Assembly (NCBI GenBank): GCA_023512835.1
Contig: CM042088.1
Coordinates: 496,001-560,000, forward strand
Reading direction: 5' to 3'
DNA length: 64,000 nt
DNA from: Taxillus chinensis
Lineage: Eukaryota; Streptophyta; Magnoliopsida; Santalales; Loranthaceae
Shown: piece after piece, positions 22,326 through 49,573 of the stretch
Layout of the letters: each line of letters opens with the position of its first letter
Position numbering within the stretch: position 1 is the first letter of the stretch
The notes under the pieces: model-generated
The model's database searches: none
What the model was told of the DNA's origin: nothing
What the model saw: only the letters and a program-made list of their open reading frames with translations
Position numbers and translations under genes: made by a program

Positions 22326-23636
22326 TGTTGGTCCCGGAGAGCCTAAAGGTGGGGGGGTGAATAGGCTCTCTAAAAAATCTTTCTCTCTCTTAATGGCTTA
22401 GAAACTCACTCTGGTTAAACGGATAAAATCAGTGCGGAAGGTTAACCAGGTAGTGTAAGTATGTTGCTTTATTATCTGAAGATAATTACAACAAGGCAAA
22501 ACAGCGTTTTAGCCGATTACAACACAACACTCGTTATAGATACACACACTTGGCGAAAGTCTCTGTCTATTGGCTCTTTACAAGATATACGCTTATAAAT
22601 GTATAAGTACAAGTAAGCATGCGCGCATATCTAATTTACATTGCTTCAGGGATATATATAGACACCCTAGAAATCTATCTTGGAACCGCATTTTCCGAGC
22701 GGTGTAAAGCATTGAAGTTCTTCATCGGAAAATGTTGAAGCTTTAACTCTGCGGAGGATGTGGAGCTCGAAATATCGGAAGCATAAGTTGTAATGAATTC
22801 TTTGCTTGATTCCAAGTGCATTTGAGACCGCGTCCACATCTCCGCGTGATCCACGTGTAAGGTAATTTAGGTCTACAACGGGTTTGTCTTACATCGGGAC
22901 GAAGCGAGCTGATTGTAATTAATGTGGCTCGGAAATGATGAAGCAGCGTCTTCTTAGTCCGTCATAAGGTTCTTTACTCCATATCAGCGAAGCTCGGATC
23001 CTTACTCCATGTCAGTGGTTGCTTACTCCGTGTGAATGAAGTCCTGGAATCCTTGTTCCATGTCAGCGCTTCCTTACTTCGCATGAGTATTGGTTTGGAG
23101 AGCTTACTCCACATCAGCGCTTCCTTACTCCGCATGAGTAATGGTTCGGATTCCTTATTCCGCATTTGATGTCCTTACTCCGCAACAATTGTCCTTGCTC
23201 CGTTCAAATGAGACTTGGATTTCTCAGTCCGTGTCTTCCTTTTCTTTAGTTCAGTGGAGTGACAATTTCGATTCTCTCTTCACAACAGGTCTCTCTTATT
23301 CCGTGCGAGTGGTAGACTTCGAATCTCATTCCATATCAATTGACTTAGCCAAATTGAGAATTAGACACGGGTTCCTTAAGTCGTTTTTTCAAGTATTTAG
23401 TTCGCACGAAAAGTCCTTACTTCGGGTAAAGACTCGGTTATGTACCAAGTGAATGATGATACTCATCATGATCCGGATCAGGATTATGTATCCTGTCCTT
23501 AGCTTTGTTCTCACACGAGTAGGTCTGGATTTAGAGTTAACTCATCTGCACAGACTTAATGGTAAACATGAAACATCTCGAGTCAAATTACATAGGGTTT
23601 GTTCCGCATTATCCAAATTCTCGGTTTGATCCAACA
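22326..23636 (-). repeat. E3 3' LTR
   Basis: The LTR is 1311 bp. It contains two units of a 51-bp minisatellite (23063-23164) and many scattered CTTACTCCG motifs (22970-23200). The end next to 22326 carries the poly-G/poly-C tract before GGGACCAACA on the minus strand. It is 101 bp shorter than the 5' LTR, which is explained by two fewer 51-bp units. Confidence 0.92.
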
Positions 23637-23652
23637 ATCTCCCCCAATATGG
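23637..23652 (-). other. E3 polypurine tract
   Basis: The complement reads CCATATTGGGGGAGAT and abuts the 3' LTR, fixing the element orientation and proving that ORF3 lies inside the element. Confidence 0.85.
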
Positions 23653-23776: not shown

Positions 23777-24462
23777 TTATGGTACATACGGCTTACTATA
23801 TTTGAAGATCATCCTTGTTGCATGCTCTCGTAGTGCCATTGTCTGCTTCTTGGAGAACTCGATGATATTTTTCCAGTCATCATCAAAGGAGATAACGGAT
23901 TTCAAGAAGTAGCAGACAAAGGCTCCACAGCTGTTTCCATCGGGTTGCTGGGGTACATTCTTCTTGTTCCGGATCGTCCCCATGAGTACTTCATCCTGAC
24001 CAAGAGGCGGTAGATTCAAGTCTTCATAGAGAGAACTCTGTCTGATTGCATCCGACAAGGTTCGAACGAGACTCCTCATCTGATTCTTTCTAATCGGGCG
24101 GTCAACAACTTGATGAGAATCCAGAAGCAAAATTTTCTTCTCTTTGATTAGGAAAACAGTCAGCATGAAATGTGGGGAGTCGACCCGGAAGGGAATGAAA
24201 CGATGGACAGAGAGGTCCATGGTCGGCTGTTCTTTGCTGTACCATTGATGTAGGATAGAATAACATCCACAGCAAGAAACTGGTTTTCAACCCAGCAAGG
24301 AAGAATATCAAAATCAAGGCCTTCCTCAAGTAAAAAGGGAAATAGCCTCAACTCCATTTTTACCGCCAGAGCATAGTTATCGATGTCATCAGTGGAAAAT
24401 TGTCCCTCCTCAGACAGTATGGTCTGGATATCTTGAGGTTCGAAGGGGGACAAGGCAGACAC
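23777..24462 (-). pseudogene. E3 ORF3 C-terminus: Ulp1/SENP-like C48 cysteine protease domain
   Basis: The C-terminal 147-residue frame (24220 to 23777) has the C48 signature in order: His in SPHFMLTVF (residue 17), Asp in ILLLDS (34), Gln in VPQQPDGN (92) and Cys in NSCGAFVCYF (98), with six residues between Gln92 position and Cys98 as in Ulp1 enzymes. Known family members remove SUMO or related modifiers. The preceding frame (24462 to about 24240) carries WVENQFLAVDVILSYIN, an upstream part of the fold. One frameshift near 24230 separates the two and the ORF ends at TAA or TAG just after YVP, about 125 bp before the PPT. The substrate is unknown and the function is inferred. Confidence 0.8.
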
Positions 24463-24465
24463 ACA

Positions 24466-25133
24466 TCAGTGCTCGGCAGTGGAGGAGGCATAGGCCTTGG
24501 CCGCAGCAAGAATGCTCCCATCAGCATCATCCGGACGCAATTCCGCGTATGATGGGAGGAAGGTGATGGCACCAGATGGAACAACAGGAGTGGGAGAGCT
24601 AGTCTGGCCAGTGGAGAAACGACTGCGTTTAGGCACGGGAAGGCCCGGAGGAAGAGCAGGTGCAAACCGTTTGTGAGAGGCAACGCCAGCAGTGGAAGGA
24701 GGGGAAGGATCAGATGATTTCTCCCCCGGTTTGGTAGATCGACGAGAGTGGGAGGGACTGGCCACGACTTGCGTTAAGTCTGCAATAGAGGTAGACAAGT
24801 CCGAGAAAGACGTGGCAAGCCGCTCAAGCTTTTGATCCATAGAGAGAGAGGTAGAGGAGAAGGCAGAAAGAAGCTCGGCATCCAAGGCCCGGACATGGTC
24901 GGAAAGAGCCTGGGTCTGAAGATGACTGTCCTCAGCAAGGCGATTGAGTTGGGCTAAGAAAGCAGCCTCAGATAAAATCGTGGCAAAAGAGGCACGCCCC
25001 AGACCAAAGGCGGGAGCTTTCGAGGACTCGCTGGCATTAAGAGGGGCAAGTGTGGGCAGGGCAGAGTTGGCGGCAGCAGGAGAGGACGGTGGTTGTACAG
25101 CAGCAGCAGTAGGAGGGGCGGCAGATCCACTTT
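24466..25133 (-). pseudogene. E3 ORF3 middle: Ala/Pro/Ser-rich linker with coiled coil
   Basis: An open frame of about 220 codons within the element, low complexity (Ala, Pro, Ser). It has a predicted-looking helical stretch (FLAQLNRLAEDSHLQTQALS to SIADLTQVV) and a basic PKRSRF patch that could be nuclear-localising. It ends at a TGA (24466-24468) directly followed in frame by the protease-side sequence, so the stop is probably a mutation. The upstream end is the E4 insertion, with the same linker composition on the far side of E4 (34323 onward). Confidence 0.72.
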
Positions 25134-26984
25134 TGTCATGCCCTGCATTTCTGACTCGGGAAACCGGTACGTGACTCCCCATTCACCCACACGGAGGGCA
25201 ACGGGGTTGGATTACTAGATGCCACACGAGCAAAACTAACAATTATAATAAATCAAACAAGCCACATCTTTATTTAATTCCAAACCTCAAAGGTTCACAA
25301 ACCAACCATGTTCCGTACTACAATTCAGTCTCTTAGTACATTTCCCCCATGGGGTTACATAAGTCATAAAATTACATCACAGAAGAGCAATAAAATGAAG
25401 ATGGTCTTCCACCTTGGTGTATCCACCTAACGCCTGTAAGTCCCTGGAAAACAAGCAAACACAGTAGGAGGGGTGAGCAACCACAGCTCAGTAGGGATCA
25501 AGTCTCCCCAACCCTTCCCATGCTCCTAGCGGCTACATGCATGTGCACAGGTGTAGTGATGTGGCAGTAGTAAGAAAATAAAGCATTTCACATAACGGGC
25601 GTAACCTCAGCCCCAACCACACCTGGCTAACAAACCACAACTCAAATAAGTAATTTAACCGCCTCTTCAGGCCACTGATTTAACCGCCTCTCAGGCAAAG
25701 TAGTTTAACCGCCTCTTCAGGCCACTGGTTTAACCGCCTCTCAGGCAAAGTAATTTAACCGCCTCTTCAGGCCAGATACCATAGTCATGCACATAACACA
25801 CACTACGGTCACTCAAGCATAAAACCAAAAACTTGGTGTGCACCCGTTCACAAGTGCACAAACCTAGCCATTCAGGCAATAGAACAAACACCCAGCATGC
25901 ATACATACACCAAATCACAAGTCCAACCACACAGACATATTACCAAACATGTAATGGGCATATACACACAGCTATATTCACACAGGCATTTCATCGAACA
26001 TATAGCATGCCACAACAGAATCACACCGAAATGCCACTGAAGGCCAACATCCATATAGGAGATCACACCTATATGGATTACATATATATATAAACAGATA
26101 GAATCCATAATTTGCCCCAGAACCCTAGGACAGAGGAGGATTTAGGAAAAACAGAACCCCTACCTCAAGTAAGACGCAACAACACAGCAATAGTCTGTTC
26201 CCACGCCGAACGCCGTCCACCCACAAGGCTCCGACCACCCACGCAAGACGCCCGGCAGCAACCAGGAGCTCCCCTTCCCTCTCTCTCTCTCTCTCTGCGA
26301 CGGCTGGTGGAGCAACAAACCCTAAACCTAAAACAGAGAGGCTTCTCCTCCTTATATAGACAACACAACATCAAAACGACGTAGTTTTGATTAAGTGAAT
26401 CCCAGCATCAAAATGACGTAGTTTTGATTACACAAGTTACAACCTTTCCGCATCCATACACACCAAAATACTCACTATACCAACCTGGTCCTTTGGGAAA
26501 AGATGATTAGAATAACAAAACTAAGGTAACCATGCAAAAATATGCCTGCATGCCAATTTGAACGCCAATTCCCCAATTGGCGTGCAGCTCCAAATGCACT
26601 CAAACTTCACCCCAAGCCTCCTTGCATCTTGTAGAGGTCTGAGAAGCAAAAATATGCTTGCACGTGAAATGGGTGAATTCACGTGTAGCTCCAAATGCTC
26701 TGAAATTTCTGTGGTAGGTAAAGGACCTCATTCTAAGAAACTTTTATTCTTGCACGCCAATTGTTTGAGGCCATTTACCCTATCTAAAGTGAGCTCCAAG
26801 ATCAGCCAAAACAGCTTAAAATCGCCTGTATATGCATAGCATTTTCCTAGGGCATAAATACACGTTATCATTTGTCATATGCACCTCCCAAAAGTCCCCT
26901 CTTGGGCTCCCTAAAACCCAACAATTTCCACTCACAAGGCATCTATGATTAACTCCGTACATCCCACAAACACGGGTCATTACA
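25134..26984 (-). repeat. E4 3' LTR
   Basis: The LTR is 1851 bp. It has the GGCGGTTAAA array inverted (about 25655-25775), a TATA-type (TA)n, a short CT run (about 26279-26297), a TATA box (26350-26359), palindromes at 26370-26391 (perfect) and 26407-26428 (one change), and a U3 block related to E7 (about 26560-26870). Confidence 0.92.
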
Positions 26985-27291
26985 TCCTCTCCCCCTTAAG
27001 ACTTTTCGTCCTCGAAAAGAAACAACATACGAGGAAAACAAACACAAGCTACCCAAATGGGTCATACATCGCGCACCACACATAACAGCACATAACAAGG
27101 TACCACCGTAATCCATAACCACATGCATCACAATAATGCATATAACACATATCCGCATGTCACAAATATACATCTCAAAACACATCACAAATATGAGCAC
27201 ATGTCTAAAAGACAATACAAACACCAAAATCATACACAACTAATACAAGAAAACACATCACTATCCCTTGGCCAACAGCCACCTCCCACTC
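26985..27291 (-). other. E4 polypurine tract and 3' non-coding region
   Basis: The PPT is 26985-26997 (complement AAGGGGGAGAGGA) with the CTTTTCGTCCTCGAAAAG hairpin just upstream in element sense (27003-27020). A second, decayed PPT/hairpin module sits at about 27284-27318 and overlaps the pol stop. Confidence 0.85.
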
Positions 27292-28374
27292 TTAAGATTG
27301 TTCGTCCTCAAACAACGCTGGATGCTGCTCCCACATCAAGGACTCACGCTCCCAAGTCTCCTCCTCAATGCCACGGTGCTGCCACAGCACGCGAACCAAA
27401 GGAATAGCACGACCACGCAAAAGCTTCTCTCGCCGATCTAAGATACGGATAGGGGCCTCAAAAACGGACATGTCATCCTCAATGTCCAATGTCCCCCAAT
27501 CAATCACATGAGTGGGGTCAGGGTGATACTTCCGCAACTGGGACACGTGAAACACGTTGTGCACTCGACTTAGCCGCGGTGGTAATGCTAACCGGTAGGC
27601 CACGGGCCCCACACGATCCAGAGTCTCAAAAGGACCAATAAACCGGGGAGATAGCTTGGAACTTCGCCCAAACCGTCGATGTCCATGACGTGGAGAGACA
27701 TGAAGGAACACATGATCACCAACAGAAAACTCCAAAGGTCGCCGCCGCTGATCCGCATAAGATTTCTGCCGACTCTGAGCTAATAACAACCGCTGACGAA
27801 TCAACTTAACCTTCTCAGTAGCCTCTTGAACCTTCTGTGGTCCCAAGAGAGCGGCTTCGCCGACCTCAGTCCAACACAACGGTGATCGGTAGGGTCTGCC
27901 ATACGACGCCTCAAAAGGAGCCATCCCAATGGACGCCTGAAAATTATTGTAGGCAAACTCAACCAAAGGAAGGTGAGTTGCCCACGAACCCCAAAATCTA
28001 ACACACAGGCCCGTAACATGTCCTCCAACTTCGATTCGTCCTCTCGTCCGACCGTCGGTCTCGGGGTGAAAGGCTGTACTCAAGTGAAGCTTGGTCCCCA
28101 TAGCCTCCTGCAAACCTGCCCAAAAACGGGAAGTGAACCTCGAATCCCGGTCAGAGAAAACCGATGATGGTACTCCATGCAGTCGCACAATCTCGTTCAT
28201 GTATAGCTGACTCAAGGTCCCAATAGAGTCCCGCTCGCGAACAGCCAGGAAATGGGCCGACTTTGTGAGTCGATCCACAATCACCCAAATCATATCCTTC
28301 CTCCCAGTGGTGGGTGGAAGACCAGTCACAAAGTCCATCGCGATGTGGTCCCACTTCCACTCCGCTATGGGCAA
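27292..28374 (-). pseudogene. pol: E4 pol: integrase core, C-terminal domain and chromodomain
   Basis: The open frame is 360 codons. AMDFVTGLPP (first catalytic Asp, residue 14) and SDRDSRFTS (second) are present. The region expected to hold the catalytic Glu ([10 protein letters not shown] type) is read in a shifted frame as RTRGRIEVGG, flanked by two compensating indels, so the DDE triad is incomplete. The GPY/F-like FIGPFETLDRVGPVAYRL and the chromodomain (PIRILDRREKLLRGRAIPLV then LWQHRGIEEETWERES) are intact and end EDEQS. This is the best Tekay-type chromodomain in the window. Confidence 0.9.
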
Positions 28375-28465
28375 GGGTCAGTAACATGCCCGCCGGCCGC
28401 CGATGCTCGGCCTTCACCTGGCCGACACGTGAGGCACCGCGAAACAAAAGCAGCCACATCGCGTT

Positions 28466-29371
28466 TCATCCCAGGCCACCAAAAATGTCCTCGAAGCGCA
28501 TGGTACATCTTCGTACCCCCTTGGATGCACAAACTCTAGACTGGTGAAACTCCCTCATCACCTCATCCCTGAGGGAAGAAGCCACTACCAACCGCCCCTG
28601 AAAAGACAACTCATGCTCAGGACCCTCTGTCCAGTCCTCAGATAGCTCCCCAACCTCAATATGGGCACGGAGAACCTCATACTCAATGTCACCCAACTGT
28701 TCCTCCCGGACGCGCTGGTACAACTCAGGCACAACTACCAAAGGACTCAGGACTGTCCCACTATCACGAACAACAGGCTGCAGCTGTAACATCGCCAACT
28801 GCTCCATCAGCTTCCACTCTCGCACGGCCACCTCAGCTTTCCCTTTTCTGCTCAACGCATCAGCCACAATATTACCCTTGCCCGGGGTATAGGCAAGAGT
28901 AAAGTCAAAGGTCTGCAAATACTCCACCCATCTCCTCTGCCTCAAATTTAAGTCCTTCTGGGTAAAGATGTACTGAAGGCTCTTGTGATCTGAGAACACC
29001 ACAAACTTCTCCCCCAAGAGGTAATGCTGCCAACTCTTCAGGGCGAAGATGACAGTCGCTAACTCAAGGTCATGTGTAGGATAATTCTGCTCATGAGGCT
29101 TCACCTGCCTTGACCCATAAGCCACCACACTGTGCTCCTGCATAAGCACACACCCCAAACCAACCCTGGACGCATCACAGTACACCTCATATGGAATATC
29201 CTCCCGAGGTAACCTCAACACCGGTGCAGTGGTCAAACGGGTTTTGAGAGTCTCAAACGCCTGCTGGCACTTGTCCGTCCACTCAAATTTCACTCCTTTC
29301 CTAGTCAACGCCGTCATAGGAGCCGCCAAATGGGAGAACCCCTCGACAAAACGACGATAGTACCCCGCCAA
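28466..29371 (-). pseudogene. pol: E4 pol: RT thumb, RNase H and integrase N-terminal linker
   Basis: A 301-codon frame with [23 protein letters not shown], then RNase H motifs: [14 protein letters not shown] (catalytic Asp), [14 protein letters not shown] (Glu), [11 protein letters not shown] (Asp) and ADALSRK. It breaks near 28460-28500 at GHFWW, before the HHCC cysteines. It is separated from the RT frame by a stop at about 29390. Confidence 0.9.
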
Positions 29372-29389
29372 GCCAAGAAAACTACGGAT

Positions 29390-30204
29390 CTAAAAAACGT
29401 TGGTTGGCCTCGCCCACGATGCCACAGCCTCAATCTTGGCTGGGTCCACCCTAACTCCCTCAGCTGACACCACATGGCCAAGAAAGTGAACCTCCTGCAG
29501 CCAAAACTCACACTTGCTAAACTTAGCAAACAGCTGTTGGTCCCTCAAGGTTTGCAACACTGTTGCCAAATGCTCCACATGCTCCCTCTCGGTCTTGGAA
29601 TACACCAAGATATCATCAATGAACACCACCACAAATGAATCCAAGTATGGAGCAAAGACCTGGTTCATCAAATGCATGAACACCGCTGGCGCATTAGTGA
29701 GCCCGAAAGGCATCACTACCCACTCATAATGCCCATACCTGCACCGAAAAGCCGTCTTAAGGATGTCCTCCTCCATAACCCTGAGCTGGTGATACCCCGA
29801 CCGTAAATCTATCTTAGAAAACCACTGGGCCCCACTCAATTGGTCAAACAGGTCATCTATCCGAGGCAACGGATACTTGTTCTTCACGATCACCGAATTC
29901 GACTTCCTGTAGTCGATGCGAGAGACGAAGCGTGCCATCGCCCTTCTTAGCAAAGAGCACCGGAGCACCCCAAGGTGAGGTACTTGGTCCGATATACCCC
30001 TGGTCCCCCAACTCCTCGATTTGCCTCTGCAGCCTCTCTCGGCTCGGCTGGCCCCATACGATATGCTACTTGGGAAATCGGACCCGTCCCCGGCACCAAC
30101 TCAATGGTGAACTCCACACTCCTCTTAGGTGGCAGACTCCTCAACTCTTTAGGAAAAACATCCCGAAATTGGTCCACAACAACGGGCCACACCCTCTTTT
30201 CCAC
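29390..30204 (-). pseudogene. pol: E4 pol: reverse transcriptase
   Basis: The main frame (29968 to 29390) contains [53 protein letters not shown] (Asp pair intact), [11 protein letters not shown] and [11 protein letters not shown]. The N-terminal RT part ([20 protein letters not shown]) is in the adjacent frame 30204 to 29947, joined by a frameshift near 29950. Confidence 0.92.
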
Positions 30205-30985
30205 CTTCCCCTCCTCGAAAGGTCAGGGCTGCCAACCTATGGGTAATGGCACCCCACCGGTCCAACACCGGCCCGGCTCGACTCGCCTCACGATCCCACT
30301 CCCCTTGCAGGGTACAAGAGATTCCTGCGGGTGACACGAAGGATACACGCCGCCGGTAACAGTCTATCTTGGCTTGGAAAGCCATAAGCCAATCCATACC
30401 CAAGATCAGGTCAAAAGTACGCAAAGGCATCACATGCAAGTCGAAACTCAGTTCCACATCACCCATGGTTAACACACAATCGCGGCAAACGTGTCGCACC
30501 TCAATCATACCTCCCACCGGAGACTCTACAACTAAGGGCCTCTCCGCCTCAACACACGTTAACCCCAAGCCCTCAACTATGAGCTCAGCAATAAAAGAAC
30601 GCGATGCACCCGTATCGAAAAGAACAGAAGCAAGCATGCGGGAGATCAAAAGAGTACCTCAAACCACCGATGGTCCTGCTCCCTCCTCTGCCGGTGAAGG
30701 TGGTAGCTCAGCCTCCTCCTGGGGTGTCGCATTCAGTGCAAACACCCTCCCTTGGCCAGTGCCACTGGTTGGCTCACTCACTGGGCGGCTCCCGCCCAGA
30801 CTGCCTCTAGCATCAGCCTGCTGTCGCTCTGGCCTCCCCTGAGGTCGGGTCTGGTAGGATCCTGCCTGGCTGGCCTGCCACTGACGAGCTGGTCTCCCAG
30901 CTGGTGCATGGAAGCTAGCATCACTCCTCACGCTAGATGCCACGCCCCCCGCTCCCCTGTTGCCACTCCTGCAAACCCGGCGCAA
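30205..30985 (-). pseudogene. pol: E4 pol: aspartic protease
   Basis: [19 protein letters not shown] with intact catalytic Asp-Thr-Gly and [12 protein letters not shown] lie in the frame 30649-30149. The Gag-PR linker ([18 protein letters not shown]) lies in frame 30985-30659, broken at a stop codon just before MLASVL-type sequence. Confidence 0.9.
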
Positions 30986-30994
30986 ATGGCCCTC

Positions 30995-32098
30995 TCATCC
31001 ACAGTTGTTGCATCGCCAGTCCTTCTTGGGGCACTCCCCCTTGAAGTGACCCTGCTCTCTACAGCAGTGACAGCTGCTAGGTAGACTCCCAGATGGACCA
31101 CCCTGTCTTCCCCCACCAAAGGTGAACCTCCCGGGGTTCACAGATGTCTGACCCCGACTGCGAAAAGAACTGCTATCCCACTCCTCCGTCTTGAGCCTCT
31201 TGGACCCTGCATCTTGATCAGGCCCACTCTGCAACTGGCGACCCTGATGGGCCTGCCTCCCATCATCCAGCTCTCTCTCGGCTATACGGGCCGTCTCCAC
31301 AACCTCCGCATAGGTCCTCAAGCGTAGAATTGCCACCCTCTGCCTAAGGGCTGGCCTAAGGCCCAAAGTGAACTTGTGGGCCTTCAGGTCCTCCCTTGCC
31401 ACAGTCTCAGGAGCAAACCTACTCAAGCTCAGGAACTCCCGTTCATACTCAGGTACCGTCCTGGATCCCTGCTTCAAGCTGCCGAATTCTTCCCTCTTCT
31501 GCCATCTCACTGATTCTGGGAAGAACTCATCATGGAAGAGTTGCAAGAACTCCTCCCAAAGCATGAGTTGCACCGCACGGCTCCCCGCGACACTCGTCCA
31601 CCACTCCAAAGCATCCCCCTCCAGCTGCCGAATGGCCAGTCGCACCTTATCCTCTTCCCGGGGCAGGAGAAAGGAGAACACATGCTGGATCTGCCTCAAC
31701 CACTGCTCAGCTACCACGGGATCTCCTTCCCCCTTAAATCGCGGAGGTTGTTCCTTTCGGAACCGTGTCACCACGTCGTCCTCTGCCCGAGTCGGTACAC
31801 CACCCAGTGAACTCTCACGCTCACGAGGCAGCTCGCCTACTGGTGGTGGCGGTGGCACCACCTGCTGTGCTGCCATCTCACGGCACACCTCCTCCCGAAC
31901 CTCCTGCCGGAGTCCCTCCCGTAGCTCTCGTACCTCCAGCCGGATGCCTTCCCGTAGCTGTGCCAGCAACAATGCATGCCCTCCAACGGACTGTCCCGCA
32001 CCCGGGCCCTCATGGGCAGATGACTCATCAGCCACTGCCCCGGACGCACGTGTCGCTCTCGTCGGCGGCATTCTTACTACACGAAGTAAGAAGCACAA
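30995..32098 (-). pseudogene. gag: E4 gag, open to a stop in the second zinc knuckle
   Basis: The open frame is 367 codons. The family start is MPPTRATRASG, ten codons into it (about 32071 on the plus-strand scale). It carries a five-proline run, the Gag core (EEFLQLFHDEFFPESVR, PEYEREFLSLSRFAPE) and the first knuckle CHCCREQGHFKGEC. It ends at TGA (30997-30995) after CNNCG. The next frame continues directly with the remaining knuckle (MRRVCRSG). E2 has the same stop. Confidence 0.92.
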
Positions 32099-32486
32099 AC
32101 GTCAAAACGAATTTATAATCTATCGCGTCACTACCTCTACCCCACTGATCAATTCCACTATCACATGACATTACACACATACATTGTATCAATCACGTTT
32201 CACAGTTCAGTACGCATTGCCAAACAAATCAGATTTGCACATGGCACTTAATGATATTATCTTATCCACAATTTCCATAGTTTAGCACACATTCACAGCA
32301 AATGCAACTAGTGCCCTAATGCCAATGCATGCAAATCCTACCACAAGACTGGACTACCCTAAGTACACCCTGGAGGCTCAAAGAGGACCATGTGGATCAG
32401 GCATGTCCCTCCAGGCTCCTCCAAAGGACTTAGGATAACCAGGTCCGCCCACTACCCTAGGCCAACTAGACCTTGCTCTGATACGA
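32099..32486 (-). other. E4 leader and primer binding site
   Basis: Non-coding leader. The PBS at 32474-32486 is TCGTATCAGAGCA on the minus strand, one base off the TGGTATCAGAGCA consensus. Confidence 0.87.
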
Positions 32487-32489
32487 TAT

Positions 32490-34322
32490 TGTCACACCCT
32501 GCATTTCCGACTCGGGAAACCGGTACGTGACTCCCCATTCACCCACACGGAGGGCAACGGGGTTGGATTACTAGATGCCACACGAGCAAAACTAACAATT
32601 ATAATAAATCAAACAAGCCACATCTTTATTTAATTCCAAACCTCAAAGGTTCACAAACCAACCATGTTCCGTACTACAATTCGGTCTCTTAGTACATTTC
32701 CCCCCATGGGGTTACATAAGTCATAAAATTACATCACGGAAGAGCAATAAAATGAAGATGGTCTTCCACCTTGGTGTATCTACCTAACGCCTGTAAGTCC
32801 CTGGAAAACAAGCAAACACAAGTAGGAGGGGTGAGCAACCACGGCTCGGTAGGGGATCAAGTCTCCCCAACCCTTCCCATGCTCCTAGCGGCTACATGCA
32901 TGTGCACAGGTGTAGTGATGTGGCAGTAGTAAGAAAATAAAGCATTTCACATAACGGGCGTAACCTCAGCCCCAGCCACATTGGCTAACAAACCACAACT
33001 CAAATAAGTAATTTAACCGCCTCTTTAGGCCACTGATTTAACCGCCTCTCAGGCAAAGTAGTTTAACCGCCTCTTCAGGCCACTGGTTTAACCGCCTCTC
33101 AGGCAAAGTAATTTAACCGCCTCTTCAGGCCAGATACCACAGTCATGCACACAACACACACTACGGTCACTCAAGCATAAAACCAAACACTAGGTGTGCA
33201 CCCGTTCACAAGTGCACAAACCCAGCCATTCAGGCAATAGAACAAACACCCAGTATGCATACATACACCAAATCCCAAGTCCAGCCACACAGACATATTA
33301 CCAAACATGTAATGGGCATATACACACAGCTATATTCACACAGGCATTTCATCGAACATATAGCATGCCACAACAGAATCACACCAAAATGGCACTGAAG
33401 GCCAACATCCATATAGGAGATCACACCTATATGGATTACATATATATATAAACAGATAGAATCCATAATTTGCCCAGAACCCTAGGACAGAGGAGGATTT
33501 AGGAAGAACAGAACCCCTACCTCAAGTAAGACGCAACAACAAAGCAATAGTTTGTTCCCACGCCGAACGCCGTCCACCCACGAGGCTCCGACCACCCACG
33601 CAAGACGCCCAGCAGCAACCAGGAGCTCCCCTTCCCTCCCTATCTCTCTCTGCGACGGCTGGTGGAGCAACAAACCCTAACCCTAAAACAGAGAGGCTTC
33701 TTCTCCTTATATAGACAACACAACATCAAAACGACGTAGTTTTGATTAAGTGAATCCCAGCATCAAAACGACGTAGTTTTGATTACACAAGTTACAACCT
33801 TTCCGCATCCATACACACCAAAATACTCACTATACCAACCTGGTCCTTTGGGAAAAGATGATTAGAATAACAAAACTAAGGTAACCTTGTAAAAATATGC
33901 CTGCACGCCAATTTGAACGCCAATTCCCCAAATGCACTCAAACTTCACCCCAAGCCTCCTTGCATCTTGTAGAGGTCTGAGAAGCAAAAATATGCTTGCA
34001 TGTGAAATGGGTGAATTCACGTGCAGCTCCAAATGCTCTGAAATTTCTGTGGTAGGTAGAGGACCTCATTCTAAGAAACTTTTGTTCTTGCACGCCAATT
34101 GTTTGAGGCCATTTACCCTATCTAAAGTGACCTCTAAGATCATCCAAAACAGCTTAAAACCGCATGTATATGCATAGCATCTTCCTAGGGCATAAATACA
34201 CGTTATCACTTGTCATATGCACCTCCCAAAAGTCCCCTCTTGGGCTCCCTAAAACCCAACAATTTCTACTCACAAGGCATCTGTGATTAACTCCGTACAT
34301 CCCACAAACACGGGTCATTACA
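32490..34322 (-). repeat. E4 5' LTR
   Basis: The LTR is 1833 bp. It has a TATA box 33705-33714, two perfect palindromes 33725-33746 and 33762-33783, a telomere-like box with two AACCCTA repeats (33671-33685), a very short CT run (33640-33650) and the GGCGGTTAAA array (about 33014-33134). Differences to the 3' LTR are mostly single transitions and a loss of about 20 bp near 33930. Confidence 0.92.
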
Positions 34323-35347
34323 ACTTTGACCGAAGAGGTCAATGGTAGGGATATCCGTAGGATAAGAGGGACCAGCCTCAGCAGGGACAGGTGTCCGTGC
34401 GTCATGGGCAGGCCCGGAAGAGGCAGCAGCAGGAGATGCAGCTTTTAGGAGCGACGGCGTGACAAAGCCGTGATTGTATTTCCAAATAAGCATTTCCTCC
34501 GGGGTCTGGGTGTGTTGAGCATAAAACACCCGGAGGGTAGGCTCTGGGACGTCAGCAGTAATGTCAAGGCTGAAGCGCAGCCAGCAGTCATTCAGTATGT
34601 CGGTGGAGAGATGGTCGAGATAGTCCTGGATGGCTAGAGAGTGAGCGGGAGAGGCTTCCGCCGGAGATGGAAGATCCGGAAGAACAGCAACAATAGCCGC
34701 TGTGACCGGAGAGATGGGTGCGGGAGCATCAGCAGCAGCATCAGGAGCAGCAGCAGCAGCATCAGCAGGAAGAGAGGCAGGGACATTAGCAAGAGAGACG
34801 GAGGTGGAAACCTCATGGAAGGGCGGCTGAGAGGGCCCGCGCACAGAACGGGTCAGCCCGAACGTTGTGCAGCGAGCTGCGGGAGCATGCCGGAGCGGCA
34901 ACAGACCGGATGCGGGAGTGAACTGACCGTAGAGCAGAACTAGCTTCATGGCCCGAGCTGGCAACAGGCTCACCAACAGAACTCGCTTGCTGTTCTGAAG
35001 CGACAGCAAGGGCACGGGAGACTGGAGGGCGGCGAACGGTGAGGGTCCCGTCGGCAGTAAGATGGCGGAAGTAGTAGGACGCCGGGAAGGGAATCACCAG
35101 TTCACCCTGGAAGTGCACGGGGTGAAGATGCCGGAAGATTTGGGACAGAATCCATCCAAAAGATGAGTTTCGTTTCCCATTCCGCAACACCCGGAAGAGA
35201 AAGTTGCCCCAGTCAAGTGGCAGTGACTCAAAAACCGCATACATCGCTAGCAGGAGATCGTACGGAACCGAGTCGAGAGCCATGGAGCGAGCCAGAAGAC
35301 ACCGGCTGAGTATGGTGGCCATACAGCGGTGAGGACCATGGAAGGAC
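34323..35347 (-). pseudogene. E3 ORF3: mobile-domain C-terminal part and linker
   Basis: Between the two insertions, minus-strand frames read HGPHRC and MATILSRCLLARSMALDSVP, then FESLPLDWGNFLFRVLRNGK and SQIFRHLHPVHFQGELVIPFP. This fits the helical plant transposon-associated mobile-domain type (PF20167-like, from memory of the family style). A Ser/Ala-rich region and a further frame with LSTDILNDCWLRFSLDITAD and EEMLIWKYNHGF follow. At least one frameshift lies near 34820-35000. It resumes beyond E4 at 25133. Confidence 0.7.
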
Positions 35348-36852
35348 TGACCCGTATAAATTATGTCTATAGGTTTTGCAGCAAGTGCACTAGTCAAATA
35401 ATAAAATGGAGTATTGCGACTTCGGTTGTCGAACCCACAGGGAGGTAGCTAATGCTATTAAGCTGCAAGCACTAAGCTATCAAGTTGAACTTATGTCTGG
35501 ACAATTGATTTTTGTTTAAGCAAAAGTGATTAAATCCGAATGTTGGCAAGTTGTTGGTATAGAAATTGCAGTGATTAAGGATCTAGGGTCACAATGTTTA
35601 CCACCCAATCGATTGTAATAGTCTGGTTATGGCTCTTGTTCTTGGTTTATGTTCTAGTTCATGTTCATGTTGATTATCTCCTACCTATCTTACATTTGGT
35701 CCATGCTAAGATAGATTTAAGGCTTTTATCCCATTTGGTCCATGTGAATAAAAGTGATCAAGGTAGATAAACAATCTAATAGTTGCAGACTTGGTCCATC
35801 ATATAATATTAAATCTAATTCACTAGTGTTCCAACCTAGACAAGGGCTAAGATTACCTAATTATGCATAAACTAGGCATTTCCATTCAAGCAAATAATTA
35901 AACAAGAACTGAATTTTATTTTATTGAACAACCATAACCAAACTGAATACAATTTATTGGGGGCTACATTGCTCCCCTAGACTAACAAAATTACTCCATA
36001 ATCATGACAAAAGCAATAACAATTACAAGAAAGAACATGATTACAGTACCAGGACAATAAAGGAAGAACCCAAGATGAACCAGGACTCCAGCCTCCAAAG
36101 ACTCTGGCGTCTGTGGCCCCAAATCACTCGTTGCCAAGGACAATCCGATCTTTTAGCAATGGCTATAGCTCTTTTTCAGAACTCAGATCAAATTCCCACT
36201 CAAGATGTATTACAATGCCCCCACAGCCCCCTATTTATAGGATTTAATGGGCCAAATTAGGGTTACAAAAGGTGTGCCCTAATTATAAATGTGGTCGCAG
36301 CCAAAATGACGTCGTTTTGGTTAGTGACAATATTCAACGTTCTAGGCTCAATAACACTCAAACAATACCAAATTTGACCCCAATTCTTTAGAGGAAAATG
36401 ATTAAAACAACAAAACACATCATTTGGAGCTCAAAAATGCCTGCACGCGAGAATGAACGTGAGAAGACCCTTTTCACGTGCAACTCCAATTCGACTCAAA
36501 TTTGCTCCAAAGCTTCCTCTTGAGTTTTAGAAGGCATCCATGCAATAAAATCCTTGCACGTGAGAATGCACGTGAGAAAGCCTTTTCACGTGCACCTTGA
36601 TTTTGCCTTCATTTTGCTTCCATCTTGTTCCTATAGCTTCCTCTTGAGTGTATGGAGTGATCTAGTGAAGGTGTGTGGGAAAAAGTTGCTCCAAAACCTG
36701 CCAAAAATACTCAAAAAGTATAACTATACACCAAACAGGGTCTTCCTAGGGATTAGAGCAGATATGTGTAAAATATCATGCAAATAGGTACAAAGCATAC
36801 TCTAAAACACCCTAAATAAGGTCTAGGATAACGGCATAAATGCACGTTATGA
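35348..36852 (-). mobile_element. Solo LTR (or short non-autonomous element) of the E7 family
   Basis: The 1505-bp insertion starts TCATAACGTGCATTTATGCC on the minus strand (E7 starts TGATAACGTGC) and ends CGGGTCA. It is flanked by perfect 5-bp duplication AGGAC (35343-35347 and 36853-36857). It has no coding capacity and no PBS or PPT layout, so a solo LTR is the simplest reading. It contains a palindromic CCAAAATGACGTCGTTTTGG (36301-36320) and a block with TTTTCACGTGCA motifs shared with the chromovirus LTRs. Confidence 0.8.
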
Positions 36853-37213
36853 AGGACTTCATTTTGTACTCCTTCACCTTATTAGGACACCCCATGGAAG
36901 CAGCCATGGCAGCAGCGTTTGGTCGAATGTCATCGCCAGCAGGAAGATTGAAAACATCCCGGATCACCTGAGGCGTGATCTTGATAGTTTCCCCTTGAAC
37001 CACAGAAAGGATAAACTCCTCAGTGGAGGTGGAGTGGTGATGGAAGGCCAGGACGTCCAACACTAGAAGATCGGCCAGGGCAGAGACAAGCGTGAAAAGG
37101 TTGCTGTGCTCAAGTAGCTGGCGAACCTCGTGGAGCCATGCTGGAGGATCAGAGATTCCAGACCAATCGACAAGATGGCCAGGAACAACACCATAAAGAG
37201 CTTGTGATACCAT
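36853..37213 (-). pseudogene. E3 ORF3 N-terminus: plant mobile-domain-like
   Basis: The ATG at 37213 starts MVSQALYGVVPGHLVDWSG. Later motifs include WLHEVRQLLEHSNLFTLV and GETIKITPQVIRDVFNLPAG. The pattern DW-x-I-x-D, WL-x-E-x-R, and I-T-P-x-V-I-x-x-x-F-N-L-P is that of plant transposon-associated proteins often fused to Ulp1-like proteases. EX has a homologous start at 54403. The frame enters the duplicated AGGAC of the solo LTR and continues in frame at 35347. Confidence 0.75.
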
Positions 37214-38984
37214 TGAGAGTGAAAGGGTGAGGAAGAAGGAGAGAAGAGCTTTGCCCGAATAGGTGCGCCGAGGATTTAGGGTTTTGAGAGTTCGTAGTGA
37301 TAACCTCGGTTGACACCGATAGTGTAGTATAAGTAGGATACTTTCCATGGAAGCAAGTGGGTCTCGAGTTTAAACGAAATGAACAGTGTGCTACCCGACT
37401 TCCTTATGTCATTAGAAGTGATGGATTAGCGCCGTCGAATAGATATATGACGTGGTGGCTATGCTAACCATTCAAAGATGACAGTTGTAGGCATACTTCC
37501 GGATTTTTGAAAAGATAAGTATCAGGCTCGATGCGTGCATTAAATGAACCATCATTAGCCCTCCTCAAAAATAAGCGATGAAAGATAATTACTTGGTTTA
37601 TCGCAAATTGAGATTTCCAAGAGTCGGGAGGAAATAAACCGACGTTCATCCAGGAGAAGGATAATCCATATAAAGAACATCCGGATGAGACTGACTAACT
37701 GTAACCATGATAACAGAGTGTTGAAAAGAGATGATTCCTTTGCGGTCTTGATGTCAAGGGAGTATGAGGTACCACAACACCTCAGAAATCCGAGACATCT
37801 GATACGATAGAGCAATAAAGTGCAAAGAGAATCTGAACCTGTGACTTAACAAATAGATGCTTTGAAGAGCAAGTCTCGTCAGGTTCGGGTTAGTCCAGAT
37901 AAACAATATAAGAGTGTAACACACAATCTGTACTAAGAAGAAACAAAACTTATGCATAAAAAGTTAAGTGCTAGGCACATACAAACAAAGTGAAAGCCAT
38001 CATACTGAAATCAATGTATGTGTGAGATAATTAACACATAAATCCAATAGGTCAACATAGCCAATCCTTCATATTGACAATGAGAGCAAAGATTAATTAG
38101 ATTTATATGACTTCATCCATCAGAGATTGTATGAGTGAAAATGGAAGGAAGAGCACATGATGTATGATGTTACAACCGACTGTCATGCCTACAATGCTAG
38201 GAAGAGGAAGATAACAGTCAAGCAATCCGCAATTCCGATTCAACAGTGCCAAATCCAATCAGCTTTATGAGTGAGAGTTATAGGGTGGAACATCCGAGAC
38301 ATATTAGAGAGGCATTACTTAATAATAAGCATTCTCTCACCCTGTAGTCTTGCCTTTTGCTGAAACAGGAGGCCTTACTTAAGATTTAATGAAGTATTCT
38401 CTCCCCCTGAGATCAGCGAATCATTTTGATGCGATCTTCTCGAGGATGACTCCCCCTCAGATAGACAACCAGGAAAGAGGTCATGAAGTACGAATCCGAG
38501 GGTTTTACTTAAATAATAGAGAGAGCAATTTCTCCCTCGTTGACTTTTAGAGCCTGTCAAGACGTTTCCTGTTTAACATGAATCGTGAGAAACTGCTGCC
38601 TATCCTTCATTTACTTCACCCAAGCAGCTGATTGGCAGACCCAGTGAATTTCCACTTTCAATCCGAGCTATCCCAAATCATTCCTTAACCATGCATCTTA
38701 GATATTTCAGTCAGTCATTAAATCATAAGACATGTGATGGAAGATGAATTGAATTCATGACATCAGAATAGGATTTATGTCATATAAATTTAATTATGTT
38801 TACTTGATTCACTTGTCGATCCAGGATAAGCAAGCATCCTCCCATCTGAACTTAGTAAGAAATATCAGAGCATTTACACGATTAAAGTAAGATAGTTAAA
38901 CATGAAGTTCAGTATCTATCACTAACCATGAAGTACAACAATGCATGTTCTGAAAATAACTACTGATGGATAACCGGTGAGAAG
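37214..38984 (-). other. E3 spacer between pol and ORF3 with PPT-like tracts
   Basis: No supported ORF in 1.8 kb. Several G-rich polypurine runs on the minus strand (complements of CTCCCCC at 38400-38407 and TCCCCC at about 38451-38456, and CTCCCTC at about 38532) resemble secondary PPTs. The block around 38420-38480 matches E6 62250-62290. The region just before ORF3 contains a weak TATA-like TTATACT (about 37325). Confidence 0.7.
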
Positions 38985-39407
38985 CTATGCAGAAAAGTCA
39001 AGCATACCTAATTTGAGAAGAAGTTTAGAAAATCTTACATCAGGTAGGGGCTTTGTAAGTATATCCGCCAGTTGATCTTCAATAGCAACATGTTCCAGGG
39101 ATATGTGCTTTTTAAGAACATGATCGCGAATGAAATGATGCCTGACTTCAATATGTTTTGTCTTTGGATGCATGACGGGATTATTGCTGATAGCAATAGC
39201 ACTGGTATTGTCACAATAAAGTGGAACATATGTCATGTTGAAACCGTAGTCAGTAAGTTGACTTTGCATCCAGAGAAGTCGTGCGAAAGAACTCCCAAGA
39301 CTATATATTCCACTTCAGAGAGATGTTGATACGGAATTCGCTTCTATCGAACCAAGAGATCAATCTGTTTCCAAGGAATTGGCATGTACCACTGGTGCTT
39401 TTCTGGT
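38985..39407 (-). pseudogene. pol: E3 pol: RNase H
   Basis: The frame 39269-38985 contains VPLYCDNTSAIAISNNPVMH, TKHIEVRHHFIRDH, and DQLADILTKPLPDVRF, with LGMLDFSA at the C-terminus, the copia RNase H end. The upstream part (STAEAEY-type) is damaged between 39270 and 39407. Confidence 0.88.
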
Positions 39408-40591
39408 CTATGCGACACCCAAAAAAATCAGCATCGAATATCCAGGATAAGGCGAAGTTGGACTCTTTTGGGTACCGAGTCCCAAATTAATTGTCCCTTT
39501 GATATACCTTAATATCCGTTTTACGTGAAGCATATGTGACTCTTTTGGATTCGCCTGATATCTTGCGCAGATGCAAGTTGCAAACATTATGTCCGGGCGA
39601 CTTGCTGTAAGGTACAGCAAGGATCCAATCATCCCTCTGTACTCAGTCACATTCACTGATTTGCCATCAACATCTGGGTCTAACTTGGCACTGACTGGCA
39701 TTGGAGTTTTGACGGGAGATGAACCTTCCATACCAAACTTCTTGATTAAGTCACGAGTGTACTTAGCTTGGTTGATAAAGATCCCTTCCTTTAGTTGTTT
39801 GACCTCAATCCCAAGAAAGTAGGACAGTTCTCCCATCATACTCATCTCAAACTTGCCGGTCATCAACTTGGCGAACTCATCACAAAGTTTTGGATTAGTT
39901 GATCCGAAAATGATATCATCCACGTAGATCCGTACGATCGAGTATGTGTCTTCTCTTTCTATAAGAATAGCGTGGTGTCAATCTTCCCTTTTTGGAAGTT
40001 ATGAGCAAGTAAGAATTCCGAAAGTGTGTCGTACCAGGCTCTTGGAGCTTGCTTCAATCCATACAAGGCTTTCCTTAGTTTGTAGACCAGATGTCCAACC
40101 TTTGGTTCAACGAAGCCTGGAGGTTATTCAACATATACCTCCTCTTGAAGGTCTCCATTTAGAAATGCACTCTTGACATCCATTTGATAAACTTTAAAGT
40201 TTTCGTATGAAGCGTATGCTAAGAACATTCCGATTGCCTCAAGTCCGCTACTTGGGGCAAAAGTTTCGTCATAGTTTATTCCTTCTTCTTGACGATAACC
40301 CTTGGCTACCGGTCGGGCTTTGTTTCGGATTACGATTCCGTCCGTATCAAGTTTGTTCCGGAACACCCATTTAACTCCAATGACTTGTTGAGACTTTGGC
40401 CTTGGTACAAGAGTCCACACATCATTCCTTTTGAACAGATTTAACTCTTCCTGCATGGCGTCTATCCAATTTGAGTCTTGAAGAGCTTCTTCCACCACTT
40501 TTGGCTCTATTTGCGACAAAAAGCAAGAGTAGAGGCACATGTTGGAGGTGGCTACTCTTGTTCTAACACCAACAATAGGATCACCAATCAC
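39408..40591 (-). pseudogene. pol: E3 pol: reverse transcriptase
   Basis: Copia RT motifs occur in two frames. The first, 40591-40124, has [48 protein letters not shown] (consensus VARLEAI changed) and [19 protein letters not shown], and ends in a stop. The second, 39923-39408, has MDDIIFGS where consensus is YVDDIIFGS, then [13 protein letters not shown] and SRPDIMFATCICARYQ. The Tyr-Val of the YVDD box reads as Ile-Arg... upstream of Met, so the catalytic box is altered at its first residues. Confidence 0.88.
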
Positions 40592-40619
40592 TTGTTCTTG
40601 AGGGTGGCTTTGAGTCCAC

Positions 40620-41969
40620 CTATAGTTTTCTAGTAAGTGGTGGTGAATACTTAATGATTTGAAGCTCTGTCAGATTAGGTGGTCCTTGGTCGTCCACTGA
40701 TTGAGCTTCTTCAGGGCCAGCGTTATTAAAATTAACAGGTTCTAGAGTATTTTGAGGTTCTCCATTACTGTTCATTTCCGTATCAACTGGTTCGGATGGA
40801 CTGGAAGGTACTCCGGTATTTTGAATATCCGAAGGAATATATCCGGAGTTATGTGGAAGTCCCGAGTCCAATTCATCCGTAGCATCATCTGCATCATTTC
40901 TTCATTCTTCATTGGTGCCACGTGGTTGGTCAGTAGAGGTGACAGGAACATTCATAAACTTTGAGTAGTCAACGTTGTCGTCTTGATCCTGCACATTAGA
41001 ACTTGAAGAACCAACTTTCGACCAATCCGTGTTAGTTTCATCAAAAGTCACATGGATAGATTCTTCAACTTTGAAGAGTTTTCTATTGAAAACCCGATAA
41101 TCCTTGCTATGAAATGAATACCCAACAAATATCCCATCATCGGATTTTGGTTCAAATTTATTCCAGGATTCTTTTCCATTGTTCAGTACGTAGCAAGTAC
41201 ACCCAAAAGTCCTGAAATGTGAAATAGAAGGCTTTCGGCCTTTCCACATCTTGTAGGGTGTTTTCATGGTTAATTTATTTATAAGAGTCCTGTTCTGAAC
41301 ATAGCAGGCAGTAGACACCGCTTCAGCCCATAGATTGAGAGGAAGCTTTGCCCCTGCTAACATTGATCTTCCAGCCTCGACTAAAGTGCGATTCTTGCGC
41401 TCAGCTACCCCATTTTGTTGTGGAGTTCTGGGCGCAGAAAAGTCGTGCTGAATGCCCTGTTCAGAACAATACGACCTCATTTCTGAGAAATCAAATTCTG
41501 TACCATGTTCACTCCTGATGCATTTAATGCTCAATCCTTGTGAATTGCTTATCCAGTTGAAGAGATCGACAAGGTGTTCAAAAGTTTGATCCTTAGATTT
41601 CAGGAACATCACCCATGTGTATCTGGTGAAGTCATCGATAACCACTAGAGTGTATCTCACACCAGCAAGTGAAGAGACAGAAATGGGACCACAAAGGTCC
41701 ATGTGAAGAAGCTGTAAAGGAGCAGTTATTGAAGTAACTGATTTGCTCTTAAAACTATGTTTGGTCTGTTTGCCTAGTTGGCATTCTCGACAAAGAGTGT
41801 TTCTGGAGTATTTGTGTTTAGGAAAACCAGTGACCAAATCAAGCAACACTAATTTAGACAAGGTCTTAAAATTTAAATGTGTGCAACGCTTGTGCCATAG
41901 CCAACTATCTTCATGTGATGCTGTAATGAGGAAGCATACAGGGTCAGAAGAATTGTTTCTCAAGACCAC
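40620..41969 (-). pseudogene. pol: E3 pol: integrase and C-terminal extension
   Basis: The open frame 41969-40902 has the HHCC zinc domain (WLWHKRCTHLN, LCRECQLGK), then MDLCGPIS (first Asp). The second catalytic position reads RSEHGTEF, where E6 and EX have RSDHG, and the Glu follows in QQNGVAERKNRTL. The Asp-to-Glu codon is at 41508-41510. Ser/Pro-rich tail segments continue to 40620. Confidence 0.9.
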
Positions 41970-41972
41970 AGA

Positions 41973-42353
41973 CTATATGTCCCTATCTCTTGATCCGGAT
42001 AACTTAATGTCTCCGGATAAGTTATCTCTAACTGTGCAGGTGTTTGACAAAAAGGAAATCGTGAATCCTTTGTCATATAAATTACTGACACTCAGCAGAT
42101 TATGCTTTAAACCTTCGACTAATGCAACCTTAGTAATTGATACACAGCCGTTGGTTAAAGTGCCGCACCCCACAGTCTTACCTTTACTGTTGTTGCCATA
42201 TGTTACGGATGGGCCTCGTTTGTCGGTAATATCCACAAGCAGAGACTTATCACCCGTCATGTGTCCGGAGCATCCGCTATCGAGTATCCACTTGCTTTGA
42301 TTGATCTTTGACTGCAAGTGAGATGACAATGAATTCCATAGATGCTCCTGCAA
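41973..42353 (-). pseudogene. pol: E3 pol: aspartic protease
   Basis: SKWILDSGCSGHMTGD carries the copia protease active site (Asp25 in this 126-codon frame, DSG). It is separated from integrase by a single TAG (41973-41975). GNNSKGKTVGCGTL and VEGLKHNLLSVSNL follow. Confidence 0.88.
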
Positions 42354-44707: not shown

Positions 44708-44719
44708 GCTTTGATACCA
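44708..44719 (-). other. E3 primer binding site
   Basis: The complement reads TGGTATCAAAGC, a tRNA-Met-type PBS with one A for G, two bases from the 5' LTR. Confidence 0.85.
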
Positions 44720-49151: not shown

Positions 49152-49563
49152 GTTTGTCTCTGATGGTAGAGTTAAGAACGGTCTAGGATATGTGAGAGAA
49201 CCTAGGAAACCTCTTAACACTCCAGCAAAACCCTTGAGACAGAGTGTTCAACCCAAACCTATCAAATGCCCCATCTGTTGTGAAGTTGAACACCTCTCTT
49301 ATCAGTGCAGATTCTACCCTGAGTATCTTAGGAAGGAGATTGCCACAGAAATCAGGGTAAACCATAAACTGCTGAATTTCTCTAAAAATCTGCAGCGCAA
49401 CAACAACTCTGATAGGAAGAAACAAACCAGGCACACACAGGCTACCTATTCACTTTTGGGGACAATAAAAAGGGTAAGATTGTTGGTAAGGGTACTCCCT
49501 CTAATGGTTCTGTTTCAATTCAGAATGTATCTGTTGTTCAAGGTCTTAAACATAACCTGTTGA
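49152..49563 (+). pseudogene. EX gag C-terminus and protease remnant, active site deleted
   Basis: A second CCHC (CPICCEVEHLSYQC, 49267-49308) is intact. Then sequence jumps from a Gag-like tail to GDNKKGKIVGKGT in a shifted frame. The WILDSGCSGHMT block found in E3 and E6 is absent, so the protease catalytic Asp is deleted. Confidence 0.8.
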
Positions 49564-49573
49564 GCATAAGTAA

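Follow-up and report, generated by a model that had tools for sequence, protein, structure and literature searches.

A third gene with a Ulp1-type protease domain in Sirevirus-type retrotransposons of Taxillus chinensis

The function of the third gene of Sireviruses becomes testable where that gene encodes a protease under selection and with a defined catalytic cysteine. Such a gene is described here from a 64-kb stretch of Taxillus chinensis DNA (contig CM042088.1, positions 496,001 to 560,000 of the forward strand; hereafter the window), which consists of nested long terminal repeat (LTR) elements in plant DNA. One of these, E3, is a copia element on the minus strand, with a pol order of integrase and then reverse transcriptase (RT; Pfam RVT_2). 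Between pol and the polypurine tract (PPT), E3 carries a third gene on the same strand, open reading frame 3 (ORF3), in three pieces (37213-36853, 35347-34323 and 25132-23777). An initial annotation of the window had noted this ORF between the RNase H end and the PPT of E3, cut by two inserts, and had proposed that a deSUMOylase-like gene was acquired by the element. The observation was confirmed and the interpretation partly supported. The coordinates hold, both inserts are flanked by duplications, and ORF3 belongs to the element, since the PPT and LTR lie outside it and it occupies the same place in genome copies.

The C-terminal segment had been said to hold a C48 protease domain with His, Asp, Gln and Cys in the expected order, and this was upheld. 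The C-terminal piece of E3 matched Pfam Peptidase_C48 (PF02902) with 37.5 bits (E 3e-9; curated cut-off 20.7), and no other of the 126 window ORFs with 95 amino acids (aa) or more matched C48 at E<=0.01. Its four residues align in order with those of yeast Ulp1 (PDB entry 1euv; E 0.0062 whole, 0.067 for the stretch), which we take to be the catalytic residues of that enzyme. The cut-off was also exceeded in two long E3-type ORF3s from elsewhere in the genome, one an unbroken frame of 911 aa from ATG and the other an open frame of 963 aa (C48 at 41 and 39.3 bits), and in three pieces of a second family, C2 (58.2, 44.5 and 31 bits). For one C2-type C48 piece, human SENP1 was the best PDB match (E 0.0078). 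The C48 domain of ORF3 may cleave SUMO or a related modifier. When the C48 piece was searched against a protein database, none of 21 candidates was found at E<=0.001 and none of 150 at E<=1, either through the word filter or through true divergence; the same database holds many plant copia proteins. Viral contigs searched with C48, integrase and RT/RNase H gave no relatives.

The assignment of E3 to the Sirevirus type (Ty1/copia, SIRE) draws on its copia pol order together with several signals. Several PPT copies and an AT/TG attachment site are present in E3 and are similar in the genome copies, a C-rich run precedes the LTR end (by inspection), and the primer binding site resembles what is presumably the 3' end of initiator tRNA-Met. 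Multiple PPTs, the AT/TG attachment site, a tRNA-Met primer binding site and the C-rich LTR-end signal are all given for Sireviruses in PMC2829016. Additionally, the RT/RNase H frame of C3, a third element of the window, had 7993 protein relatives at E<=0.001, and the named ones among the 120 listed were plant copia pol proteins. The RNase H piece of E3 had no Pfam match of its own.

The E3 copy of ORF3 is dead, because it contains one stop (an in-frame TGA at 24466-24468) and two frameshifts, located within the frame overlaps 24163-24286 and 34816-35093. Whether it was once a working gene was assessed by counting the least number of frame breaks needed in the sense direction, against 200 shuffles. 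The minimum was 0 for the N-terminal piece (360 nt), 1 for the middle piece (1024 nt) and 2 for the C-terminal piece (1352 nt); shuffled pieces needed 2.2, 4.2 and 8.9 on average (lowest of 200: 0, 1 and 4) and the antisense strands 2, 5 and 9. The count for the short N piece by itself was not significant against its shuffles. For comparison, gag-pol of E3 needs at least 15 breaks in 5633 nt (59.8 when shuffled), and the linker between pol and ORF3 gave no coding signal, with 18 breaks in 1701 nt against a shuffled mean of 17.5. Taken together, the pieces most likely formed a working frame when E3 inserted. The insert at 35348-36852 is missing from copies such as L021, in which the N and middle pieces run on unbroken. 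The second insert, a Ty3/gypsy element, is younger than E3, because the Kimura two-parameter distance (K2P) of its LTR pair (0.0262) is below that of E3 (0.0386 over 1308 sites). E3 itself lies between GTAGT and ATAGT, a target duplication of 5 bp in which one base differs, and neither ORF3 type was detected by tblastn in the 6 kb just outside the window.

A search of the host genome (520.9 Mb) with the C48 piece drew 7932 candidates, of which at least 150 were scored as matches; E3 aside, these were 80-97% identical. Twenty of the 150 loci were fetched, chosen mostly for long open frames. The fetched stretch included RT or RNase H in 13 of these 20, the distance from RNase H to the ORF3 start was 1.6-1.8 kb in ten, the box GGGGGAG stood about 130 nt past the ORF3 stop in 19, and the attachment site was exact in 13. 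The RNase H piece gave at least 150 scored matches among 9428 candidates, and nine of the first 30 (E3 included) had a listed C48 match nearby on the same strand, judged by eye. The absence of such a neighbour says little, as the listed C48 matches are the best 150 of 7932 candidates. Twelve RNase H copies without a listed C48 neighbour were of interest as possible relatives without ORF3; they were picked by hand from the best 150 (ten from the first 30) and are not a random sample. The ORF3 N-terminal module was in place in all 12, in 801 nt read at the expected spot, although members without ORF3 may exist given the choice by hand. In the eight that were traced to the C-terminus, C48 similarity and an exact PPT and attachment site were found every time; all four catalytic residues were kept in five, and several had stops. 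Neither of the results that the initial annotation would have counted as refuting, a C48 score under threshold or E3 relatives lacking ORF3, was obtained in the copies covered.

ORF3 is not peculiar to E3, since the same layout recurs in C2, a Sirevirus-type family with its own pol. In the window, ORF3 starts 1847 nt after the pol stop in C2 and 1772 nt after it in E3. The 102 residues of the C2 ORF3 that precede the C3 LTR are 27% identical to the N piece of E3 (E 2e-14, z 22; none of 5000 shuffles as high), whereas identity between the families is 62-66% for the integrase and RT pieces (integrase 66%) and 76% for RNase H. At least 150 scored genome matches were obtained with the C2 N piece among 5382 candidates. 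Four long C2-type copies were inspected, and all four contain the N-terminal module, a long linker in which basic and acidic stretches occur, and sequence resembling C48, followed by PPT boxes and, in three of the four, an exact attachment site; each is broken before or within C48. Compared with E3-type ORF3s, these copies are 28-31% identical in the N-terminal module (E 1e-24 to 7e-29); over the part leading up to and into C48, identity drops to 23-28% (E 1e-9 to 1e-11). A genome search with PF02902 gave at least 150 scored matches among 4308 candidates, each above the cut-off, and among those listed, 21 begin 2.2-2.6 kb after a listed C2-type ORF3 start on the same strand (by eye). Since two families with separate pol share the layout, the simplest account would be an old gene of the Sirevirus group, and any acquisition would be old as well, unless it occurred twice.

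Within the E3 family, the 12 copies picked through RNase H fall into two ORF3 types, alpha (E3-like, three copies) and beta (nine copies), with a mean identity of 46-51% over the first 120 residues. All eight traced copies are beta, and their C48 is about 52% identical to the E3 type. The RNase H of all 12 is 90-94% identical to that of E3. Different ORF3s behind a near-equal RNase H of 109 residues suggest, as a lead only, exchange between elements or very fast divergence. Three loci considered as a third N-terminal type (L058, L062 and L067) resemble beta (mean 82%) and were set aside as such. One locus (L027:1-7853) holds an E3-type C48 plus a diverged ORF3 (N 49%, middle 61% and part of C48 56% identity). 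In a C48 tree whose sole outgroups were yeast Ulp1 and human SENP1, beta and C2 were well separated and alpha less firmly (72/56), with a warning of long branches; the tree holds no host C48 sequences and is silent on a single origin of the Sirevirus C48s.

Purifying selection on ORF3, by which the initial annotation had wished its proposal to be judged, was detected. Two duplicate loci were dropped and matches below 70% identity or 70% length excluded, and mean pairwise ratios of nonsynonymous to synonymous divergence (dN/dS) were taken over E3-type copies. The lowest value of the parts measured was that of C48 (0.313; 38 copies, dN<dS in 698 of 703 pairs), followed by the middle piece (0.36), the pre-C48 part (0.365; 616 of 703 pairs), the N piece (0.40) and the linker (0.64). 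Asp is present in all 38 copies, Gln in 37, Cys in 36 and His in 33, and 31 copies have all four residues. Variants point the same way: across pre-C48 and C48 (28 copies) the ratio of nonsynonymous to synonymous variants (N/S) was 2.45 for those seen once, 1.00 for those in two copies and 0.63 for those in three or more (Fisher p 2.6e-5), with a neutral expectation of 2.46 at the assumed ratio of transitions to transversions. For N plus middle (15 copies) it fell from 1.64 to 0.65 (p 0.017), and for the linker (25 copies) barely, from 2.13 to 1.45 (p 0.084). This pattern combines the decay of copies once inserted with constraint on the lineage. The simplest account would make ORF3 an old, fast-evolving, selected element gene that has diverged far more than pol while its ends stayed constrained; a fast-moving sequence with a kept protease would resemble what a conflict with the host produces.

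The remainder of the protein is less distinct. Its layout may be read as an N-terminal module that perhaps bears a distant likeness to mobile domains or the plant 'transposon protein', then a long Ala/Pro/Ser-rich basic linker and the C-terminal C48 domain. Mobile-domain likeness had been proposed for the N-terminus; it survives as a sub-threshold hint and fails at the Pfam cut-off. The proposed Ala/Pro/Ser linker is present, whereas its coiled coil was rejected, as the heptad contrast was equalled by 159 of 1000 shuffles. Basic stretches resembling nuclear localization signals, such as PKRSR and RGRKR, were seen in the linker by inspection. In PDB searches the middle piece had no match at E<=1 and the N piece a single one, nuclease SbcCD subunit D (E 0.56). 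A long ORF3 matched an ATP synthase delta subunit (E 0.0019) in the linker, which was taken as helix composition and discarded; Ulp1 was not listed at E<=1 for this long query, though it was for the C48 piece alone. Upstream of ORF3, a CT-rich tract and AAACCCTA lie in the E3 linker shortly before the start. CT-rich tracts precede both ORF3 starts in the window (37214-37283 in E3 and 54333-54402 in C2; top 0.5% and 0.4% of 70-mers), an ACCCTA box occurs in the leaders of both families, and TATATAA stands 184 nt upstream in C2; these features would be consistent with a leader or an internal promoter of its own.

Altogether, we favor, with a probability of roughly 0.55, the reading that ORF3 is a standing third gene in at least two Sirevirus-type families, whose product of about 900 aa would be a nuclear C48 protease, aimed by its N-terminal module, that removes SUMO or a related modifier to the benefit of its own family. 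The protein would be translated from its own transcript and leader, enter the nucleus by means of the basic stretches and be directed to its targets by the N-terminal module. There, the C48 domain could strip the modifier either from host factors of silencing or chromatin or from proteins of the element itself, and the resulting relief from silencing would favor transcription or integration of its own family. By this logic, which we liken to that of the Ulp1-bearing VANC/KIU proteins of Vandal DNA transposons, ORF3 may help the element evade host silencing. The substrate may be a modifier other than SUMO, because a review considers the KIU relatives encoded by transposable elements (TEs) unlikely to act on SUMO (PMC6117577).

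That doubt is one of several points that weigh against this reading. In the two long E3-type ORF3s PF20167 reached 14.4 and 17.4 bits against a cut-off of 45, and among three long C2-type frames it appeared in one only (13.4 bits), below an unrelated WC-rich model that was itself under its cut-off; the plant mobile domain PF10536 was not listed in Pfam scans of the ORF3 pieces or the long E3- and C2-type frames. Structure prediction was of little help: AlphaFold models made without usable alignments had a mean predicted local distance difference test score of 40, and Foldseek with the C48 model had no match at E<=0.001, Ulp1 being absent from the 50 rows listed. Amongst the copies, His is missing in five of the 38, and three of the eight traced beta copies have lost catalytic residues (one lacks an in-frame Gln and Cys, one has Asp changed to Asn and one lacks the His-Asp part). 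The p values and pair counts given for selection are rough, since copies and pairs share descent, and the dN/dS values available for pol, 0.48 for RNase H (11 copies) and 0.44 for RT (9 copies), come from few copies. The E3-type leader is conserved no better than the rest of the linker in eight copies, so that a specially conserved leader was rejected. Lastly, a hydrophobic stretch in the N piece of E3 (Kyte-Doolittle value 2.19) is unmatched in C2 (1.28).

Folds related to C48 act as viral maturation proteases, and ORF3 could be a second, adenain-like protease that serves the maturation of Gag or virion proteins of the element and is not directed at the host. The strong selection on the C48 domain would suit this explanation. 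Against it, the frame at 42362-41973 already contains DSGCSGHM, which we assume to be the copia aspartic-protease motif, and such a role does not obviously call for the long basic linker and the fast-diverging N-terminal module; we consider it unlikely.

An envelope-like or movement protein in which C48 is secondary seems improbable. The slot is the same as that of the env-like ORFs of SIRE1, ToRTL1 and the legumes, but a conserved transmembrane segment was not found. In a Kyte-Doolittle scan (no trained predictor), six of seven ORF3 pieces had no 19-residue stretch above 1.5, the lone exception is not shared by C2, and C48 is the part with the lowest dN/dS.

There is very little room for ORF3 as a functionless passenger, that is, a captured fragment of a host or transposon gene. 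Plant TEs do capture genes, maize Sireviruses included (PMC13317346), and the window copy is dead; yet purifying selection, an unbroken copy, the 12 of 12 copies picked through RNase H and the layout shared with a family whose integrase is 66% identical speak against it, and a neutral passenger was rejected. That ORF3 belongs to a Mutator-like (MULE) or CACTA DNA transposon inserted into the Sirevirus is most improbable, for although ULP1 domains are reported in both (PMC2528002), the same element position on several contigs, the same strand, the PPT and 3' LTR about 130 nt past the stop and the lack of a convincing inverted repeat linking the two flanks (12 nt at best, E 0.029) argue against it, and a recent insertion was rejected.

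The closest known counterpart of ORF3 as a selected third gene is the env-like 3' ORF of SIRE elements (SIRE1, ToRTL1, pvRetro3/4, MtRetro3, LjRetro3; eORF-3'F of PMC6317226), with which it shares lineage features, strand, the slot from pol to the 3' LTR and a heterogeneous protein. Such 3' eORFs are reported in 74% of SIRE elements as highly heterogeneous and of speculative function, and 21.4% of all eORF proteins had a likeness in CDD (PMC6317226); the MtRetro3 protein (774 aa) shows weak similarity to its counterparts in SIRE1 and ToRTL1, and that of LjRetro3 has 793 aa (PMC4093653). ORF3 differs from these, as far as the excerpted descriptions go, in a C48 domain over the Pfam cut-off with selected catalytic residues. 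KIU and the Ulp1-bearing VANC genes of Vandal/KI-MULE elements are likewise extra TE genes with C48, reportedly strongly conserved in eudicots (PMC13317346, PMC5735166), but they are carried by DNA transposons and ORF3 by an LTR element. A role in TEs is described for the Ulp1-bearing VANC genes of MULEs in PMC13317346, which also tells of maize Sireviruses with captured gene sequences, and for VANC in PMC5735166, where the proteins and their targets diversify. The CACTA-ULP of grapevine is also a plant TE with a ULP1 domain, but of class II and of other architecture (PMC2528002).

Extra ORFs outside gag-pol with PMD, Transposase_28 or Transposase_32 domains also occur in Ogre, Retand and Athila (PMC6317226, PMC11963269, PMC11728184); PF20167 is sub-threshold here. 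Unlike E3, those elements are Ty3/gypsy, the Retand ORFs that hold known domains run antisense, and neither 'protease' nor 'peptidase' appears in the main text of the Retand paper. An orchid LTR element with an AlkB-type m6A demethylase (PMC9289625) similarly carries a possible regulatory enzyme gene, but is again gypsy; that study of 121 plant assemblies reports all 15 atypical domains in gypsy and no domain gain in plant copia. No report of C48 in a Sirevirus or other plant copia element was found among the open-licence PMC papers listed, some of the lists being incomplete and most entries covered by title and abstract opening, and C48 in plant copia is likely, though not proven, to be new to print.

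More tentatively, and with the balance somewhat against it, the 'envelope-like' gene of a large part of the Sireviruses could be a fast-evolving Ulp1-type protease with a targeting module, a counterpart of VANC/KIU, with ORF3 types swapped between elements of near-alike pol. If ORF3 does strip silencing factors of SUMO, the same anti-silencing enzyme would be common to retrotransposons and DNA transposons.

Table 1. Positions of E3, ORF3 and C2 features in the window.
Feature	Position	Strand	Basis or remark
E3 3' LTR	22326-23636 (1311 bp)	-	TGTTGG...CCAACA ends; pairs with 5' LTR
Terminal PPT and attachment site, TGGGGGAGAT/TGTTGG	23637-23646	-	GGGGGAG in the same spot in 19 of 20 fetched copies
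ORF3 C-terminal Peptidase_C48 catalytic piece, 169 aa	23777-24286	-	PF02902 match; yeast Ulp1 alignment
ORF3 linker with basic stretches	24469-25132	-	closes at in-frame TGA 24466-24468
Ty3/gypsy element within ORF3	25133-34322 (LTRs 32489-34322, 25133-26984)	-	AAAGT both sides; Retrotrans_gag match
ORF3 middle piece, one frameshift, Ala/Pro/Ser-rich end	34323-35347	-	contiguous in L021 copy
LTR-like insert in ORF3	35348-36852 (about)		TCCTTC at both edges; LTR-likeness by inspection only
ORF3 N-terminal piece, from ATG	36853-37213	-	matches same slot of C2
Linker between E3 pol and ORF3	37214-38984	-	two internal PPT-like boxes near 38456 and 38407
E3 gag-pol, broken	38985-44620	-	Pfam: gag, gag-pre-integrase, integrase, RT; RNase H by position and homology
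E3 primer binding site, TGGTATCAAAGC	44708-44719	-	two bases past 5' LTR end
E3 5' LTR	44722-46133 (1412 bp)	-	TGTTGG...CCAACA ends
C2 pol, Sirevirus-type	about 47366-52556	+	
Start of C2 ORF3	54403-54706	+	homology to E3 N piece; truncated by C3 5' LTR (from 54707)

The two LTRs of E3 differ in length by about 100 nt, and repeated variants of a CGGAGTAAGG-type unit were seen in them by eye (22900-23500 and 45300-45900). C3 (54707-62690), which lies inside the ORF3 of C2, is a Sirevirus-type element of the E3 family with 83-87% DNA identity, and at about 62.69 kb it is cut in turn by sequence resembling the Ty3 LTRs of the window.

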